DNA from: Gammaproteobacteria bacterium
GTDB taxonomy: Bacteria > Pseudomonadota > Gammaproteobacteria > Enterobacterales > Psychrobiaceae
DNA: 64,000 nucleotides
Direction: 5' to 3'
Assembly: GCA_013214965.1 (NCBI GenBank)
Contig: JABSRU010000026.1
Location: forward strand, 1-64,000
In this document: one piece after another, positions 2,935-52,161 of the stretch
Layout of the letters: each line of letters opens with the position of its first letter
Numbering within the stretch: position 1 is the stretch's first letter
The notes under the pieces: model-generated
The model's database searches: none
The model's input: the letters and a program-made list of their open reading frames with translations, nothing else
What the model was told of the DNA's origin: nothing
Made by a program: the position numbers and the translations under genes

Positions 2935-5169
2935 ATGTCGAAAAATAACAACACCATTTATTACACGCTCACCGACGAAGCGCCATCGTTAGCGACTTGT
3001 TCTTTGTTACCATTATTACGTACTTTTACTACCGCTGCCGGGATTGATGTAAAGTTAAGCGACATATCTCTTGGGGCGCGCGTTTTATCGGCCTTTCCTG
3101 AAAATTTGACCGAACAACAACAGGTCGAAGATGGATTAAAATTTCTTGGTGCACTGACCCAAGACCCTAGTGCGAACATCATCAAGTTACCGAACATTAG
3201 TGCGTCGATTCCACAGTTAAATGACTGTATTAAAGAACTACAATCTCAAGGATATCAAATCCCAGATTTAGTATTGAATCCTGTGACTGATGAAGACAAA
3301 GCTAATGCAGCTCGTTATTCAAAAATATTAGGCAGTGCGGTTAACCCCGTATTACGTGAGGGTAACTCAGATCGTCGTGCTCCACCTGCTGTTAAGGCCT
3401 ATGTGAAAAAATTCCCACACTCAATGGGAAAATGGAGCCAAGCTTCACGTACCCATGCTGACTTTATGCGTGAAGGTGATTTTTTCTCAAGTGAACAATC
3501 AGTGACTGTTGATGAAGCAACTGACATTCGTATAGAGTTCACCCCTACTGGTGGAATAACTCAAGTGATGAAAGAATTTTCGCTTGAGAAAGATGAAATC
3601 ATTGACGGCATGTTTATGAGCAGTAAATCGCTACGTGCCTTCTTCGAGAAAACACTTGAAGATTGTAAAAGCACCGGCGTTATGTGGTCTCTTCACGTAA
3701 AAGCCACCATGATGAAAGTGTCACACCCCATTGTATTTGGTCATGCTGTTTCAGTTTTTTATAAAGATGTTTTTGAAAAGCATGCTGAAACCTTTACTAA
3801 GTTAGAAGTGAACCCAAACCTTGGTTTAGGTAATATTTACGACAAAATTCAAAATTTACCACGAACAGCTCGTGAACAAATCGAACGTGATATTCAAGCT
3901 TGTTATCAATCAAGACCTGAAATGGCGATGGTTGATTCAGTCAAAGGTGTTTCAAACCTTCACGTACCAAGTGATGTGATCGTTGATGCTTCAATGCCAG
4001 CAATGATCCGTAATTCTGGGCAAATGTGGGGTGCTGACGGCAAATTAAAAGATACTAAAGCTATCATGCCTGAAAGCACTTATGCGCGTATCTACCAAGA
4101 AATGATCGACTTTTGTAAAACTCACGGAGCTTTCGATCCAACCACAATGGGTACTGTACCAAACGTTGGCTTAATGGCTAAAAAAGCAGAAGAGTATGGT
4201 TCTCATGACAAAACATTCGAAATGGAATGTGATGGTGTGATGAAGATTGTTACCTCTGCGGGTGTTGTGCTTACTGAACATAATGTTGAGAAAGGTGATA
4301 TTTGGCGTGCTTGTCAAACTAAAGATGAGCCAGTTAAAGATTGGGTTAAGCTAGGCGTAACTCGTGCTCGTAATTCTAATACTCCTGCTATCTTCTGGTT
4401 AGATCCTGAACGTGCCCACGATATGGAATTAATGAAGAAAGTCGACAAGTACCTTCTTGATCATGACACCGATGGTTTAGACATCACTAAGATGGACTAT
4501 AACCAAGCGATTCGCGTATCAATGGAACGCCAACGCCGCGGTTTAGACACTATTTCAATCACTGGTAATGTACTACGTGATTATTTAACTGACTTATTCC
4601 CAATCATGGAACTTGGTACTTCTGCTAAAATGCTATCAATTGTTCCAATGTTATCTGGTGGTGGCATGTACGAAACAGGTGCTGGCGGTTCAGCCCCTCG
4701 CCATGTTCAACAGGTTGTTGAAGAAAACCACTTACGTTGGGATTCTTTAGGTGAGTTTATGGCGATTGCTGTTTCTCTAGAAGACATGGGAATGAAGCAA
4801 AATAATACTCGTGCTGCAATTCTTGCAACAACGCTAGATAAAGCAACCACAGTATTGTTACAAAATAACAAATCACCTTCACGTAAAACCGGTGAATTGG
4901 ATAACCGCGGCAGTCATTTTTATCTAACCATGTATTGGGCACAAGAACTTGTTGCTCAAACTGATGATAAAGAGTTTGCCTCTAAATTTGTTGAATTGGC
5001 CAAGTCTCTAACTGACGCCGAAGACAAAATTATTGCAGAAATGAAAGCTGCCCAAGGTCGTCCGACGGTTCCTGGTGGTTATTACCATCCAAATCGTGAT
5101 GCAGTAAAAAAGATTATGCGTCCAAGTAAAACGCTAAATGCAATCATTACAAAATTTAATGCAAAATAA
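2935..5169 (+). CDS. icd: Monomeric NADP-dependent isocitrate dehydrogenase
   Basis: At 744 residues this is the size of the monomeric (type II) isocitrate dehydrogenases, roughly twice the dimeric Icd. It oxidises isocitrate to 2-oxoglutarate and CO2 with NADP in the citric acid cycle, in the cytoplasm. The N-terminus ([15 protein letters not shown]) and the substrate-site segment EGNSDRRAP near residue 140 are characteristic, as are TGAGGSAP and LDNRGSHFY in the C-terminal half. Monomeric IDH is found in Azotobacter, Corynebacterium and cold-adapted Colwellia, where it may coexist with the dimeric enzyme. The gene stands alone with its own ribosome-binding site (AGGGAA) and a hairpin terminator after it. 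Confidence 0.97.
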
Positions 5170-47086: not shown

Positions 47087-48841
47087 TTGTTTAATTTAAA
47101 AAAATTCAATCTTAAAGCTATTGCCCTTATCTCACTAAGTGCTTTGACGATCTCAGTTGCCTCAACTGCTGCAACCACCCAAAATAATCAACAAGCAATT
47201 TACAGCCACATGTCAATTCATCATCCGGTGTGGGCAAAAAATGGCATGGTATCATCTCAAGAAGCATTAGCGACTAATATTGGGGTGAGTATTCTAGCCC
47301 AAGGCGGCAACGCAGTCGATGCCGCCGTTGCAGTCGGTTATGCCTTAGCCGTTACCCTGCCCCGTGCTGGTAATATTGGCGGAGGTGGTTTTATGATGAT
47401 TTATTTAGCCGAACAGAAAAAAACTATCGCGCTAGATTATCGTGAAATGGCGCCACAACAAGCCCATCGAAATATGTTCCTTGATGATAATGGTAATGCT
47501 GATAAAAAGTTATCGCGCTACCACGGCCTAGCCGTTGGGATTCCTGGTACTGTGATGGGTCTTGAACTTGCCCGTGAAAAATATGGCACGATGAGTAGAC
47601 AACAAGTAATGACACCGGCGATTAAATTAGCCCGTAGCGGCATAACAGTTACTCCCGATTTAGCCAACTCATTAAATGCCATGAGTCAGCGATTGGGACA
47701 ATGGTCAAGTACTCAGGAAATATTCTATAAAAAAGATGGTACTAATTATCAAGTGGGTGAAACCTTGGTTCAAACCGAACTTGCTAATAGCCTAGAATTA
47801 ATTGCAAAGCAAGGCAATGCCGGCTTTTACAGTGGGGTCACCGCCACTAAAATTGCTCAGGCCGTTCAAGCTGCCGGTGGCGTGTTAACCGTTGAAGACT
47901 TTAAGCGTTACCGGGTGATAGAACGTCAACCTGTAATGGGCACCTATCGTGGATATACCATAGCATCAATGCCACCACCGTCATCAGGTGGTGTTCACAT
48001 TATTGAAATCCTCAATATGCTAGAGCAATACCCGATCAAAAGAATGGGCCATAACAGCAGTGATACCATTCATGTCATGGCAGAAGCAATGCGCCGAGCT
48101 TATGCCGATCGCAGTGAGTATTTAGGCGATCCAGATTTCAACAAAGTACCCGTTAAGGGCTTAACCGATAAAACCTATGCTAAAAAGCTGGCGGCAACTA
48201 TTGATATCAACAAAGCGAGTTTAAGTAGCGACATTGCTCCAGGTAAAGTCCTGCCTTACGAAAGCAATGAAACCACTCATTTTAGTATTGTCGATAAATT
48301 TGGTAATGCCGTTGCAAATACCTATACCTTAAACTTCAGTTATGGTTCTGGATTAGTCGCTAGCGGCACCGGCATTTTATTGAACAATGAAATGGATGAT
48401 TTTTCTGCTAAGCCTGGCACGCCCAATGGTTACGGCTTAATTGGCGGAGAAGCCAATTCTGTTCAACCGTTTAAACGACCATTAAGCTCAATGACGCCAA
48501 CAATAGTACTTAAAGACAACTTGCCTTACATTGTCACGGGTAGCCCCGGTGGTTCTCGGATTATTACCACGACATTACAAGTGGTCATGAATGTCATCGA
48601 CCATGATATGAACATTGCAGAAGCATCCGCAGCACCAAGAATGCATCATCAATGGTGGCCAGACTATATTCGTCTTGAACGTGGAATAAGCAAAGATACC
48701 ATCGACTTACTCAAGGCTAAAGGCCATAATGTTAGAGTAAAATCATCAATGGGCAGTACGCAAACCATCATGCTTAACGAAAATGGTTTTTATGGTGCGT
48801 CAGATCCAAGACGTCCGGCAGCGTTAAGTAAAGGCTTGTAA
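47087..48841 (+). CDS. ggt: Gamma-glutamyltranspeptidase
   Basis: A 584-residue periplasmic enzyme that cleaves the gamma-glutamyl bond of glutathione. The precursor cuts itself before the catalytic threonine, T396 in NETTHFSIVD. GNAVDAAVAVGYAL, GGGGFMMIY and LDYREMAP are in the large subunit. GTGILLNNEMDDFS and SPGGSRII are in the small subunit. A signal peptide ends around residue 30. Start is TTG with AGGA 7 bases before. It is followed by a terminator, so NPP-like and ggt form a two-gene unit for scavenging extracellular nucleotides and peptides, which is an inference. Confidence 0.96.
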   Translation: MFNLKKFNLKAIALISLSALTISVASTAATTQNNQQAIYSHMSIHHPVWAKNGMVSSQEALATNIGVSILAQGGNAVDAAVAVGYALAVTLPRAGNIGGGGFMMIYLAEQKKTIALDYREMAPQQAHRNMFLDDNGNADKKLSRYHGLAVGIPGTVMGLELAREKYGTMSRQQVMTPAIKLARSGITVTPDLANSLNAMSQRLGQWSSTQEIFYKKDGTNYQVGETLVQTELANSLELIAKQGNAGFYSGVTATKIAQAVQAAGGVLTVEDFKRYRVIERQPVMGTYRGYTIASMPPPSSGGVHIIEILNMLEQYPIKRMGHNSSDTIHVMAEAMRRAYADRSEYLGDPDFNKVPVKGLTDKTYAKKLAATIDINKASLSSDIAPGKVLPYESNETTHFSIVDKFGNAVANTYTLNFSYGSGLVASGTGILLNNEMDDFSAKPGTPNGYGLIGGEANSVQPFKRPLSSMTPTIVLKDNLPYIVTGSPGGSRIITTTLQVVMNVIDHDMNIAEASAAPRMHHQWWPDYIRLERGISKDTIDLLKAKGHNVRVKSSMGSTQTIMLNENGFYGASDPRRPAALSKGL

Positions 48842-48866: not shown

Positions 48867-48895
48867 AGGGCGGTTAGTAATAATCGTCCTTTTTC
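48867..48895 (+). terminator. Terminator after ggt
   Basis: AGGGCGGTTA pairs with TAATCGTCCT (with G-T pairs) around GTAA, followed by TTTTTC, 26 bases after the ggt stop. Confidence 0.8.
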
Positions 48896-48911: not shown

Positions 48912-48942
48912 TTGACCATCCCCTTGATGGAAGCTTTATATT
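48912..48942 (+). promoter_or_regulatory. CueR-type copper-responsive promoter
   Basis: A -35 TTGACC (48912-48917) and a -10 TATATT (48937-48942) are separated by 19 bases, the long spacing typical of MerR-family promoters. Between them lies a dyad, ACCATCCC...ATGGAAGCT, that agrees with the CueR site of E. coli copA at 18 of 21 positions as I remember that site. Copper(I)-bound CueR would activate here. No cueR gene is in the window, so it must act from elsewhere. Confidence 0.85.
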
Positions 48943-48970
48943 GAGAACTCTTCTTTATTTGGTTGCTATC

Positions 48971-49303
48971 ATGACTCTTAAAACGCTGCAATACGTTGCC
49001 AAAGTAATACTGTTTACATTGATAACCTGTCAATTAGGCAATGCTATATCGAGCTATTCGAGTACGATCTCACAACATCCTATTCATAACCACGATGGTG
49101 CTGATAGCGAAGATAATTGTTGTATTGACGATGATGATACAACAAGATGGTTATCTGATTTAGACGTCGACTCATACACTTTATTACCAAAAAGTATTCA
49201 AATATCAAACCTTGCAATCACCAGCGAACAACATCGTCGCTTGAGTAATTTGGTTCCGATATTCCCTTCACTCTATTTACTGTTTCAGTCATTTCTTGAA
49301 TAA
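48971..49303 (+). CDS. Small exported Cys/His/Asp-rich protein, first gene of the copper operon
   Basis: A 110-residue protein from the ATG at 48971. An in-frame TTG at 48941 is excluded because it lies inside the -10 of the CueR-type promoter. A hydrophobic signal (about 5-25) is followed by HPIHNHDGADSEDNCCIDDD, where three histidines, a Cys pair and clustered aspartates could bind metal. It then ends in a hydrophobic segment (LVPIFPSLYLLFQSFL). I do not recognise a family. Position suggests a periplasmic or membrane copper-binding helper for the oxidase encoded 54 bases downstream, which is inference. Confidence 0.7.
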   Translation: MTLKTLQYVAKVILFTLITCQLGNAISSYSSTISQHPIHNHDGADSEDNCCIDDDDTTRWLSDLDVDSYTLLPKSIQISNLAITSEQHRRLSNLVPIFPSLYLLFQSFLE

Positions 49304-49357
49304 AACTCTATTTTTGCCTTTAATCAATATTATATAACGCAATAATTTGGAGTAATT

Positions 49358-50917
49358 ATGAAAACTCAGATATTGGCATTTCTTGTCATCAGCACTATTA
49401 GCTCAAGTCCAGTACTTGCAGCAACCTATAATTTATCAATCGATGATAAAGTAGTTAATTTTACGGGTACTTCAGCACAGGGAATGGCGGTAAACGATCA
49501 AATTCCCGGTCCCTTACTACGCTTTAAAGAAGGTGAAAAAGTCACCATTAATGTAACCAACAACATGGATATAGATTCATCTATTCACTGGCATGGCTTA
49601 ATTTTACCTTACAAGATGGATGGTGTACCGGGTATTTCTTATGACGGAATCAAGCCCGGCGAAACGTTTACATATCAGTTCACTGTGCAACAAAACGGCA
49701 CCTATTGGTACCATAGCCATTCAGATCTTCAAGAACAAAGTGGCGTTTACGGCCCAATAATTATCGAGCCTAAAGATCAATATCCCCAAAAATTTGATCG
49801 CGAATACATCGTGATGTTATCGGATTGGACCGATGAAGACCCAGTAAAGGTGTTAAAACACCTCAAATCTGAGAGTGATTATTACAAGAAAAATAAACGT
49901 ACCGTGTTCGATATTTTATCTGAAATTGGTCAAGCAGATGGTCTAGATGCAAAAAAAACGGTGATCAAAAAAAGAGCGACTTGGGCTAAAATGCGAATGG
50001 ATCCGAGTGATGTCTCGGATGTCTCCGGTTATCGCTTTTTGCTCAACGGTAAAATAGCAAGCCAACAACCACGATTTACCTTTAAAAAAGGTGAACGAGT
50101 TCGACTGCGTTTTATCAATGCCGCGACCTCAACTTATTTTGATATTAAAATTCCAGGGCTAAAAATGCAGTTGGTTCAATCCGATGGTCAAAATATCGAA
50201 CCCGTTGAAATTGATGAACTACCGATTGCCATTGCAGAAACCTATGACGTAATCATCGAGCCACAAGCTGATGTTGCTTATAGTATCTTTGCGCAGGCCA
50301 AAGACAGATCGGGTTATGTGAGTGCTACGCTAAGTACCGATGCTAATTTACAAGCCAAGGTGCCATCACTATCATCAAGAACTGAGCTTAAATTAGTGGA
50401 GGTAATGGGATCGATGTCGAGCATGAAAATGGACTCGGCAGAATCGCAGCATCAGGGGCATCAAATGGATAGCCGCGAACAAATGAAATCCGAAGGTTGG
50501 AAAATATTTAGTTACGCGGATCTCAAATCACTAAAGCAAACCAGCGATAATGCAACTCCAGATCGAGAAATATTGCTGCGATTAACGGGGAACATGGAGC
50601 GTTATTTCTGGTCGATTAACGACAAAAAATACTCCATGGCTGAGCCAATTAAGTTTAAATTTGGTGAACGTGTGAGAGTCATTTTCAAAAATGAAACCAT
50701 GATGGATCACCCAATGCATTTGCATGGCATGTGGCAAGAACTTGACAATGGTACCGGCAATTTTAAACCGAAAAAACACACTATCAATATAAAACCAGGT
50801 GAAACAGTGGTGGTTGAAGTGCCTGTTGATGCTGTTGGTGAATGGGCTTTTCATTGCCATATTTTATACCACGCAGACACTGGCATGTTCCGTAAAGTCG
50901 TGGTAGAGGGAGAATAA
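49358..50917 (+). CDS. copA: CopA-family multicopper oxidase
   Basis: A 519-residue periplasmic multicopper oxidase of the copper-resistance CopA type (not the P-type ATPase of the same name). A signal peptide ends at VLA (about 21). The copper ligands are complete: H77-W-H79, H119-S-H121, HPMHLHG, and H499-C500-H501 with H505 and the axial M510. A short Met/His segment (MGSMSSMKMDS, QHQGHQM) lies at about 350-375. It probably oxidises Cu(I) to the less toxic Cu(II). Shorter than Pseudomonas CopA (about 600), mainly in the Met-rich part. It has no Tat twin-arginine motif, so Sec export is predicted, which is unusual for this family. Confidence 0.93.
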   Translation: MKTQILAFLVISTISSSPVLAATYNLSIDDKVVNFTGTSAQGMAVNDQIPGPLLRFKEGEKVTINVTNNMDIDSSIHWHGLILPYKMDGVPGISYDGIKPGETFTYQFTVQQNGTYWYHSHSDLQEQSGVYGPIIIEPKDQYPQKFDREYIVMLSDWTDEDPVKVLKHLKSESDYYKKNKRTVFDILSEIGQADGLDAKKTVIKKRATWAKMRMDPSDVSDVSGYRFLLNGKIASQQPRFTFKKGERVRLRFINAATSTYFDIKIPGLKMQLVQSDGQNIEPVEIDELPIAIAETYDVIIEPQADVAYSIFAQAKDRSGYVSATLSTDANLQAKVPSLSSRTELKLVEVMGSMSSMKMDSAESQHQGHQMDSREQMKSEGWKIFSYADLKSLKQTSDNATPDREILLRLTGNMERYFWSINDKKYSMAEPIKFKFGERVRVIFKNETMMDHPMHLHGMWQELDNGTGNFKPKKHTINIKPGETVVVEVPVDAVGEWAFHCHILYHADTGMFRKVVVEGE

Positions 50918-50919
50918 CC

Positions 50920-51618
50920 ATGAAAAAATTATTAGTAATGACCTTAATCACAATGCCTCTGATAGCGAACGCCACAATTAAGGATGATGATTGGTATAAC
51001 TCAGGTCGCTTAGACATTGACTACGGTAATGCAAGAGGGCAAAACCAAACAGGCATTGACGGTCAGTGGCGAATTGGTGACGATTTTAATAAATTTGTGA
51101 TCGAATTCGAAGGAACTCGAGAAGGTGATGAGTGGGATGATGCGGAAGTTCAGTTGCTCTATAGTCGCTACCTTGGTAAATATTGGGACTGGCGAACAGG
51201 CATCAGACAGGGATTAAATTCTGACGGTGAAACATCGCTGATGTTAGGTATTGAAGGGCTTGCTCCTTACTGGTTTGAAACTGAAGCTTCGATATATCTC
51301 GATCAAGACGGCGACTTTTCTGTTGAAACTGAACTGAGCTATGAACTGCAATTGACCCAAAATCTAGTGGCAGAAATATTTAGTAATACGACTTGGTATA
51401 CCAGTGACAAGCTTAATGAAATGCAAGGTAGAGGACTGGTGTCAAACGATATAGGCCTAGGATTACGCTATGAATTTAACCGTCACTTTGCGCTTTATGT
51501 TGAAGGTTATAAAAATCAATATCATGGTAAAACAGCAACCATTAGACAACTCAACGGCTTAGCGACTAGAGAGCAAGGTCTTAGAGTTGGGATCCGCCTG
51601 TTTAACATTATATTTTAA
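50920..51618 (+). CDS. copB: Copper resistance protein CopB
   Basis: A 232-residue outer-membrane protein of the CopB family, starting 2 bases after copA. A signal peptide ends at ANA (about 18). The mature protein has alternating amphipathic strands (FNKFVIEFEGTREGD, WDWRTGIRQG, GLAPYWFETEASIYL, FALYVEGYKNQ) and an aromatic C-terminus, RLFNIIF, suited to barrel insertion. It lacks the Met/His-rich N-terminal repeat of longer CopB proteins. It works with CopA in copper tolerance, and its mechanism is not settled. Confidence 0.92.
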   Translation: MKKLLVMTLITMPLIANATIKDDDWYNSGRLDIDYGNARGQNQTGIDGQWRIGDDFNKFVIEFEGTREGDEWDDAEVQLLYSRYLGKYWDWRTGIRQGLNSDGETSLMLGIEGLAPYWFETEASIYLDQDGDFSVETELSYELQLTQNLVAEIFSNTTWYTSDKLNEMQGRGLVSNDIGLGLRYEFNRHFALYVEGYKNQYHGKTATIRQLNGLATREQGLRVGIRLFNIIF

Positions 51619-51627
51619 GGACTCGGT

Positions 51628-52161
51628 ATGATTACGTTAATATCAAATATTCACCCGGTATTCGTTCACTTTACCGTGGCTTTAATCTCGCTAGCTTTCT
51701 TGACCACCATCTCTACCTATTTTGTGGGTGATGACAAAAAACAAAGGTTGCTGGATTATGCGCTAATAAGCCTCTACTTGGGCGCTTTGTTTACCGTAGC
51801 GACCGTAGCCACCGGTTTATATGCCTTTGGCACGGTTAAGCATGACACGCTATCACATATGGCCATGGTTAATCATCGCAACTGGGCAATTCCAACGGCC
51901 ATACTGATTCTAATAGGTGCAGCGTTAGTATATACAAAACGCAAAACAACGTTAGCCTATCTTCTGCCGATAGTACTCGTTATCCTAACGACAATGGTGA
52001 TTATCACCTCCTTCAAAGGTGGCGAGCTAGTTTACCGCTATGGTTTAGGTGTGATGTCGATACCACAAGCCAGTGAAGAGGGTCATAACCATGAACATGG
52101 TAGTGAAAAAGGCGAGGAAGACCAACACAATGACGGTAAAAATGAATCTCACAATCATTAA
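51628..52161 (+). CDS. DUF2231 membrane protein with His-rich tail
   Basis: A 177-residue inner-membrane protein with four helices of the DUF2231 type (IHPVFVHFTVALISLAF at the start, and GGELVYRYGLGV near the end). The last 30 residues form a soluble tail loaded with His, Glu and Asp (EEGHNHEHGSE, QHNDG, ESHNH) that should bind metal ions. It follows copB by 9 bases in the copper operon, so a role in copper handling is likely though undefined. Convergent with fumC. Confidence 0.85.
   Translation: MITLISNIHPVFVHFTVALISLAFLTTISTYFVGDDKKQRLLDYALISLYLGALFTVATVATGLYAFGTVKHDTLSHMAMVNHRNWAIPTAILILIGAALVYTKRKTTLAYLLPIVLVILTTMVIITSFKGGELVYRYGLGVMSIPQASEEGHNHEHGSEKGEEDQHNDGKNESHNH

Follow-up and report, generated by a model that had tools for sequence, protein, structure and literature searches.

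The copper operon and its surroundings

The DNA analysed here, referred to as the window, is a stretch of 64,000 nucleotides in which four open reading frames lie on the + strand between positions 48971 and 52161: ORF1 (48971-49303), copA (49358-50917), copB (50920-51618) and a gene encoding a DUF2231 membrane protein (51628-52161). Re-inspection of the window confirmed these ORFs, their order and their coordinates as given in the original prediction, which had described a CueR-type copper operon. A gamma-glutamyltranspeptidase gene (47087-48841) lies directly upstream, and a terminator-like hairpin followed by a T-run (48867-48890, + strand) probably terminates it. On the other side lies fumC, a convergent gene ending 39 nt beyond the DUF2231 gene.

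The operon is preceded by a CueR/MerR-type promoter (48912-48942, + strand), in which a -35 element TTGACC (48912-48917) and a -10 element TATATT (48937-48942) are separated by a 19-bp spacer and a dyad, ACCATCCCCTTGATGGAAGCT, spans positions 48915-48935. Its first 25 bases, i.e. the -35 element and the spacer (TTGACCATCCCCTTGATGGAAGCTT), are identical at 22 positions to those of the Escherichia coli K-12 PcopA promoter (TTGACCTTCCCCTTGCTGGAAGGTT), bearing out the MerR-family spacing and the likeness to the E. coli copA site that had been proposed. The genome also encodes CueR (150.8 bits with TIGR02044, for a curated NCBIfam cut-off of 147.4), elsewhere and directly after a copper P-type ATPase gene that has its own promoter, TTGACC-19-TATGCT. 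Because the operon promoter resembles PcopA and the cueR gene adjoins an ATPase gene with a 19-bp-spaced promoter of its own, control of the cop operon by the host CueR is a sound inference from sequence, and the CueR-type assignment is supported. A genome-wide scan for CueR boxes allowing one mismatch was uninformative, as it performed no better than a reversed-pattern control. Two related operons (L197 and L199) are accompanied by a divergent gene pair resembling, by eye, a two-component regulator, whereas the window operon has the CueR-type promoter.

The copA product is a copper resistance multicopper oxidase of 519 residues that scores far over the Pfam and NCBIfam cut-offs (665.3 bits with TIGR01480, cut-off 478.95) and retains the copper motifs HWHG, YHSH, HPMHLHG and HCHILYH. 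The copB product (232 residues) is an outer-membrane copper resistance protein B (165.7 bits with PF05275, gathering cut-off 27) and matches the solved CopB structure 7pge. Family scores, copA-copB order and copper-ligand motifs thus liken the two proteins to CopA/PcoA and CopB/PcoB of cop/pco systems. They differ in that the window CopA is of the Sec type rather than the Tat type, is 519 residues long and has a short Met-rich stretch, and in that the window CopB lacks the long Met/His-rich N-terminal extension. Relatives of CopA measure about 600 residues, and the metal-ligand-rich parts of CopA, CopB and the DUF2231 tail are all short compared with those of relatives. In the nearest CopA relative (58% identity over the best segment), from Colwellia (L034:1925-3718), there are tandem Met-rich repeats (MSGMKMDK type), which are missing from the window CopA. 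The operon is a real CopAB-type periplasmic copper-detoxification operon, of an ordinary kind but with an unusual combination of parts.

That the oxidase lacks a Tat motif was upheld: no RR motif is present at its N-terminus (MKTQILAFLVISTISSSPVLA), which supports a Sec-type signal. Such a motif is found near the N-terminus of 85 of 108 related oxidases; a twin-arginine signal is typical of many TIGR01480 members but is no criterion of the model. Since the window CopA groups with other Sec-type sequences (L002, L004, L005, L034, L165 and L166, a group that includes Colwellia, Methylobacter, Caulobacterales, Thalassospira and a Pelagibacteraceae MAG), the absence of a Tat signal is, on this grouping of sequences, a trait that marks a lineage or grade rather than this operon in particular.

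No CopA oxidase was found in any of the eight congeners searched, and the cop operon is missing from the fumC neighbourhoods of three of them, where the surroundings of fumC differ; the operon was therefore probably acquired horizontally. The gamma-glutamyltranspeptidase gene is likewise missing beside fumC in three congeners.

The DUF2231 protein and its gene neighbourhood

The last gene encodes a protein of 177 residues, predicted to form four helices and ending in a His-rich tail (60.3 bits with PF09990, gathering cut-off 26.4), whose predicted structure is of low confidence (pLDDT 56). Five histidines (H9, H14, H72, H77 and H83), together with R84, W86, E133 and R137, are invariant in the 24 DUF2231 sequences compared, and all subfamily members examined have a His-rich tail, which usually ends in HxH. 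With the DUF2231/His-tail proteins of gammaproteobacterial copper islands, the window protein has in common the core segments IIPNxHPxFVHF, HDxxSHxAMxxHRxWA and GGExVYRxGLGVMSLP, the His-rich tail and the direct adjacency to copB. It differs from them by its tail, the shortest of the 24 (34 residues, 6 His, no Met), and by the lack of the SnoaL/DUF4440 domain that is fused in Idiomarina-like relatives.

Fusions of a His-tailed DUF2231 protein to a C-terminal SnoaL/DUF4440 domain occur in copper/metal islands (L157:5636-6691, L158:1129-2190 and L160:7871-8848) of genomes that we take, as a guess at the genus, to be Idiomarina-like. As a free-standing, secreted protein, the same domain is encoded upstream of copA in the Colwellia locus (L034, 795-1800), and it is also found near copA in four other loci (L060, L066, L070 and L074). 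That the window protein is a truncated fusion could not be shown; as noted, the convergent fumC ends 39 nt downstream.

A homologue was found in 50 of 369 sampled gammaproteobacterial genomes (E 1e-15 or better, the window's own genome included), with up to 49% identity to the window protein. Within the same order, by contrast, only 5 of 394 genomes have one at a laxer cut-off. A copper or heavy-metal gene (CopA, CopB, metal P-type ATPase, RND, other multicopper oxidase or DUF411, counted over about 1.5 kb on each side) lies within 1.5 kb of the DUF2231 gene at 20 of 29 loci, compared with 1 of 25 control loci, the latter being loci fetched for other reasons and hence a rough yardstick. The direct order copA-copB-DUF2231 recurs in four genomes (G422, G330, G602 and G499; in the last two it was taken from coordinates, the ORF caller having masked DUF2231 there). 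One gene separates copA-copB and DUF2231 in G437, and the orders RND-DUF2231-copA-copB and MCO-DUF2231 are found in G360 and G457 respectively. In a literature library of 5.39 million papers, DUF2231 is named in a single paper and never together with copper.

As the accompanying oxidases are mostly of the Tat type, the DUF2231 protein does not appear to be there to compensate for Sec export, and a role in making up for the missing Tat signal is not supported by these sequences. The proposal that ORF1 and the DUF2231 protein help to load a Sec-exported oxidase is likewise not supported, other Sec-type CopAs being without ORF1 and DUF2231 occurring mostly with Tat-type CopA. On the other hand, the view of the last gene as an uncharacterised copper-linked component was strengthened by the neighbourhood counts, the adjacency to copB and the invariant histidines. 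From gene neighbourhood and residue conservation, the protein is probably a metal-binding accessory.

It might instead be a general membrane or redox protein that is merely carried with metal islands. Its gene adjoins an iron reductase and a cytochrome on a Legionella plasmid and lies near mer genes in Simkania, and 9 of the 29 loci have none of the listed metal genes within 1.5 kb. The strong enrichment in copper and metal genes, the repeated direct adjacency to copB, the invariant histidines and the His-rich tail of all members examined argue against this explanation, which we regard as unlikely. The DUF2231 protein is the stronger lead of the operon compared with ORF1: this widespread and apparently unstudied subfamily, present in roughly one of every seven gammaproteobacterial genomes sampled, points to a conserved component so far missing from the picture of bacterial copper defence.

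Two further kinds of genes were observed around these loci. A P-II-like protein gene adjoins the DUF2231 gene in three of them (L175, by Pfam; L181 and L182, by a similar N-terminus), and a carboxymuconolactone-decarboxylase-like protein (FPWYVRLFFWNQKR type; L168 by Pfam) is encoded beside DUF2231 or copB in six (L168, L172, L176, L178, L182 and L192).

ORF1, a candidate leader

ORF1 has 110 codons and no obvious Shine-Dalgarno sequence at its start. Shuffles of the 516-bp gap yield a + strand ORF of 110 codons or more in only 0.4% of cases, and the codon score of ORF1 (0.077) is above that of 99.6% of wrong-frame windows; ORF1 is therefore probably a real, translated coding frame. The coding signal is weak nonetheless, the score being below that of every 110-codon window of the real genes in the window. 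Judged by inspection, the product carries a Sec-like signal peptide. It has a local His/Asp/Cys cluster (HPIHNHDGADSEDNCCIDDDD), with just a CC following the His/Asp stretch and no CxxC or CxxxC copper motif. Its C-terminus (LVPIFPSLYLLFQSFLE) has no PP within the last 15 residues, VPIFPS being found instead, and no frameshift that would yield an RPP ending was seen when the DNA was searched by eye. A single-sequence model, hence weak evidence, predicts a largely disordered structure with low confidence (pLDDT 55).

No homologue of ORF1 was found in about 425 genomes searched, among 58 relatives including all 8 congeners, or on the plasmids searched, and in 369 genomes of the class searched at E up to 0.5 only scattered matches (E 0.04 or worse) were returned. 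Pfam and NCBIfam gave no family match to ORF1; in particular, neither CopL_fam (NF033807) nor DUF2946 (PF11162) was hit with E allowed up to 1, and whole-genome searches with these two models were negative. The original prediction had presented ORF1 as a candidate for a new copper-handling protein, to be given up if the first ORF were not conserved in related copper operons; within the congeners, the sampled class and the plasmids searched, it is not conserved, and that view of ORF1 is not supported. The best match in the class (L138/G633) was set aside because its neighbours are, by eye, unrelated (phoU/pst, rhodanese and quinolinate synthase-like genes). Alignment of ORF1 with the profile of the leader set gave an hhalign probability of 2% and, although it beat 60 shuffles, covered only 8 columns and is not taken as homology. 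A similar-looking Thermodesulfobacteriota ORF (L067) aligned at E 1.4, which is not significant; this small leader-like ORF ends 45 nt before a multicopper oxidase gene at 4857 and resembles ORF1 in layout. It has CC alone, and its PP comes late, with 11 residues after it.

Small exported first genes of copper operons have known precedents: CutF, CruR and CopL are cis-acting copper-responsive leaders or regulators and not chaperones (PMC9973294, PMC9426467). Like CutF of Rhodobacter capsulatus (cutFOG) and CopL of Xanthomonas/Stenotrophomonas (NF033807), ORF1 is the first small gene of a multicopper oxidase operon, and it shares with them a Sec-like signal, a length within the CutF-like limit of under 150 residues, a Cys/His cluster and a short gap to the oxidase gene (54 nt on the same strand, CutF-like leaders lying within 1000 nt and mostly under 100). 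A possible stem covering the Shine-Dalgarno sequence would be a further likeness. This RNA stem is predicted at 49305-49353 (+ strand), where the arm 49305-49310, beginning 2 nt past the stop codon of ORF1, would pair with 49348-49353; the copA Shine-Dalgarno GGAG (49349-49352) falls within the latter. Its folding energy (-6.8 kcal/mol, z -1.17) was equalled by 23 of 200 shuffles and was not significant when a longer stretch was folded, so that the covering of the Shine-Dalgarno sequence is suggestive only. In contrast to CutF and CopL, ORF1 lacks CxxxC/CxxC and PP near its C-terminus and has no detectable homology to them. CruR of Bordetella pertussis (DUF2946, PF11162) is also an exported small leader heading a copper operon, but it has CXXC and RAPP at fixed spacing and an intergenic region of 162 nt, and it acts through Rho-dependent termination in an uptake operon; ORF1 shows none of these features.

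From this comparison ORF1 may work like a CutF/CopL leader although it falls outside those families, and our tentative preference is for a translated cis-acting leader rather than a chaperone. The missing CxxC/CxxxC and PP motifs, the 2% profile probability and the lack of a CopL_fam or DUF2946 match weigh against a leader, as do a stem not clearly better than chance and the lack of any conservation by which to test it. Nearly as likely is an orphan or decaying ORF of little or no function, either newly arisen or degenerating, perhaps from a former CopL/CutF leader. The lack of homologues, the absence of both hallmark motifs and a codon score lower than that of any real gene in the window fit such an origin; the length of the open frame in the face of the shuffle expectation, the score above nearly all wrong-frame windows, the signal-peptide-like N-terminus, the metal-ligand cluster and a position exactly where leaders sit do not. 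Clearly less probable is the view taken in the original prediction, a periplasmic copper-binding chaperone or buffer delivering copper to the Sec-exported CopA. Chaperones are normally conserved, whereas no homologue of ORF1 was found anywhere in the searches; the nearest Sec-type CopA relatives lack ORF1, the coding signal is weak and the modelled product is largely disordered. The Sec-like signal, the His/Asp/Cys cluster and the place of ORF1 at the head of a copper operon speak for a chaperone, and CutF itself was initially taken for one (PMC9426467).

Proposed working of the operon and leaders in related operons

Taken as a whole, an acquired CopAB operon under a host CueR switch, with the DUF2231 protein as inner-membrane accessory and ORF1 as exported leader, is the reading we consider slightly better than even. 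A rise in cytoplasmic Cu(I) would lead CueR to activate the 19-bp-spaced promoter. CopA would be exported unfolded via Sec, would fold and take up copper in the periplasm, and would oxidise or sequester periplasmic Cu(I) there, with CopB acting in the outer membrane; the roles of CopA and CopB are established for cop/pco systems. In the inner membrane, the histidines and His-rich tail of the DUF2231 protein would bind metal or haem and pass it on or buffer it. ORF1 would be translated and co-translationally exported, and completion or pausing of its translation would open the weak stem over the copA Shine-Dalgarno sequence and so adjust how much CopA is made to the copper in the periplasm, as CutF/CopL do. 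The sequence itself shows what the genes are, the promoter, the recurring order of the last three genes and the Sec signal; CueR control, metal binding by the DUF2231 protein and the entire ORF1 mechanism are the parts of this model that we infer. More speculatively, and with some doubt, the DUF2231/His-tail protein could be a widespread, unstudied integral-membrane part of CopAB detoxification, with a conserved five-His site in or at the membrane and a His-rich tail that binds metal, forming modular combinations with secreted SnoaL-like partners, and ORF1 may be a nascent-chain copper-sensing leader devoid of CxxC and PP. ORF1 may also serve to test whether the known motifs are dispensable for a copper-sensing leader, and it cautions against taking small exported proteins encoded first in copper operons for chaperones, since they are often leaders.

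Many related copA operons have a small exported Cys/His protein in the position of ORF1, ending in RPPI or KPPKIS. Of eight that were tested, seven gave a CopL_fam score, in one case over the cut-off. Exported Cys/His leaders precede Tat-type copA genes at L035, L051, L052, L062, L075, L078, L082, L083, L091, L093, L097, L100 and L103. Five of these were tested (L051, L078, L083, L091 and L093) and all match CopL_fam; because all five score below its cut-off, the model misses a marine gammaproteobacterial branch. In an island of the order RND-DUF2231-copA-copB, a leader-like small ORF ending in DRPPRPFV (L202:1943-2314) also lies between copB and a TolC gene.
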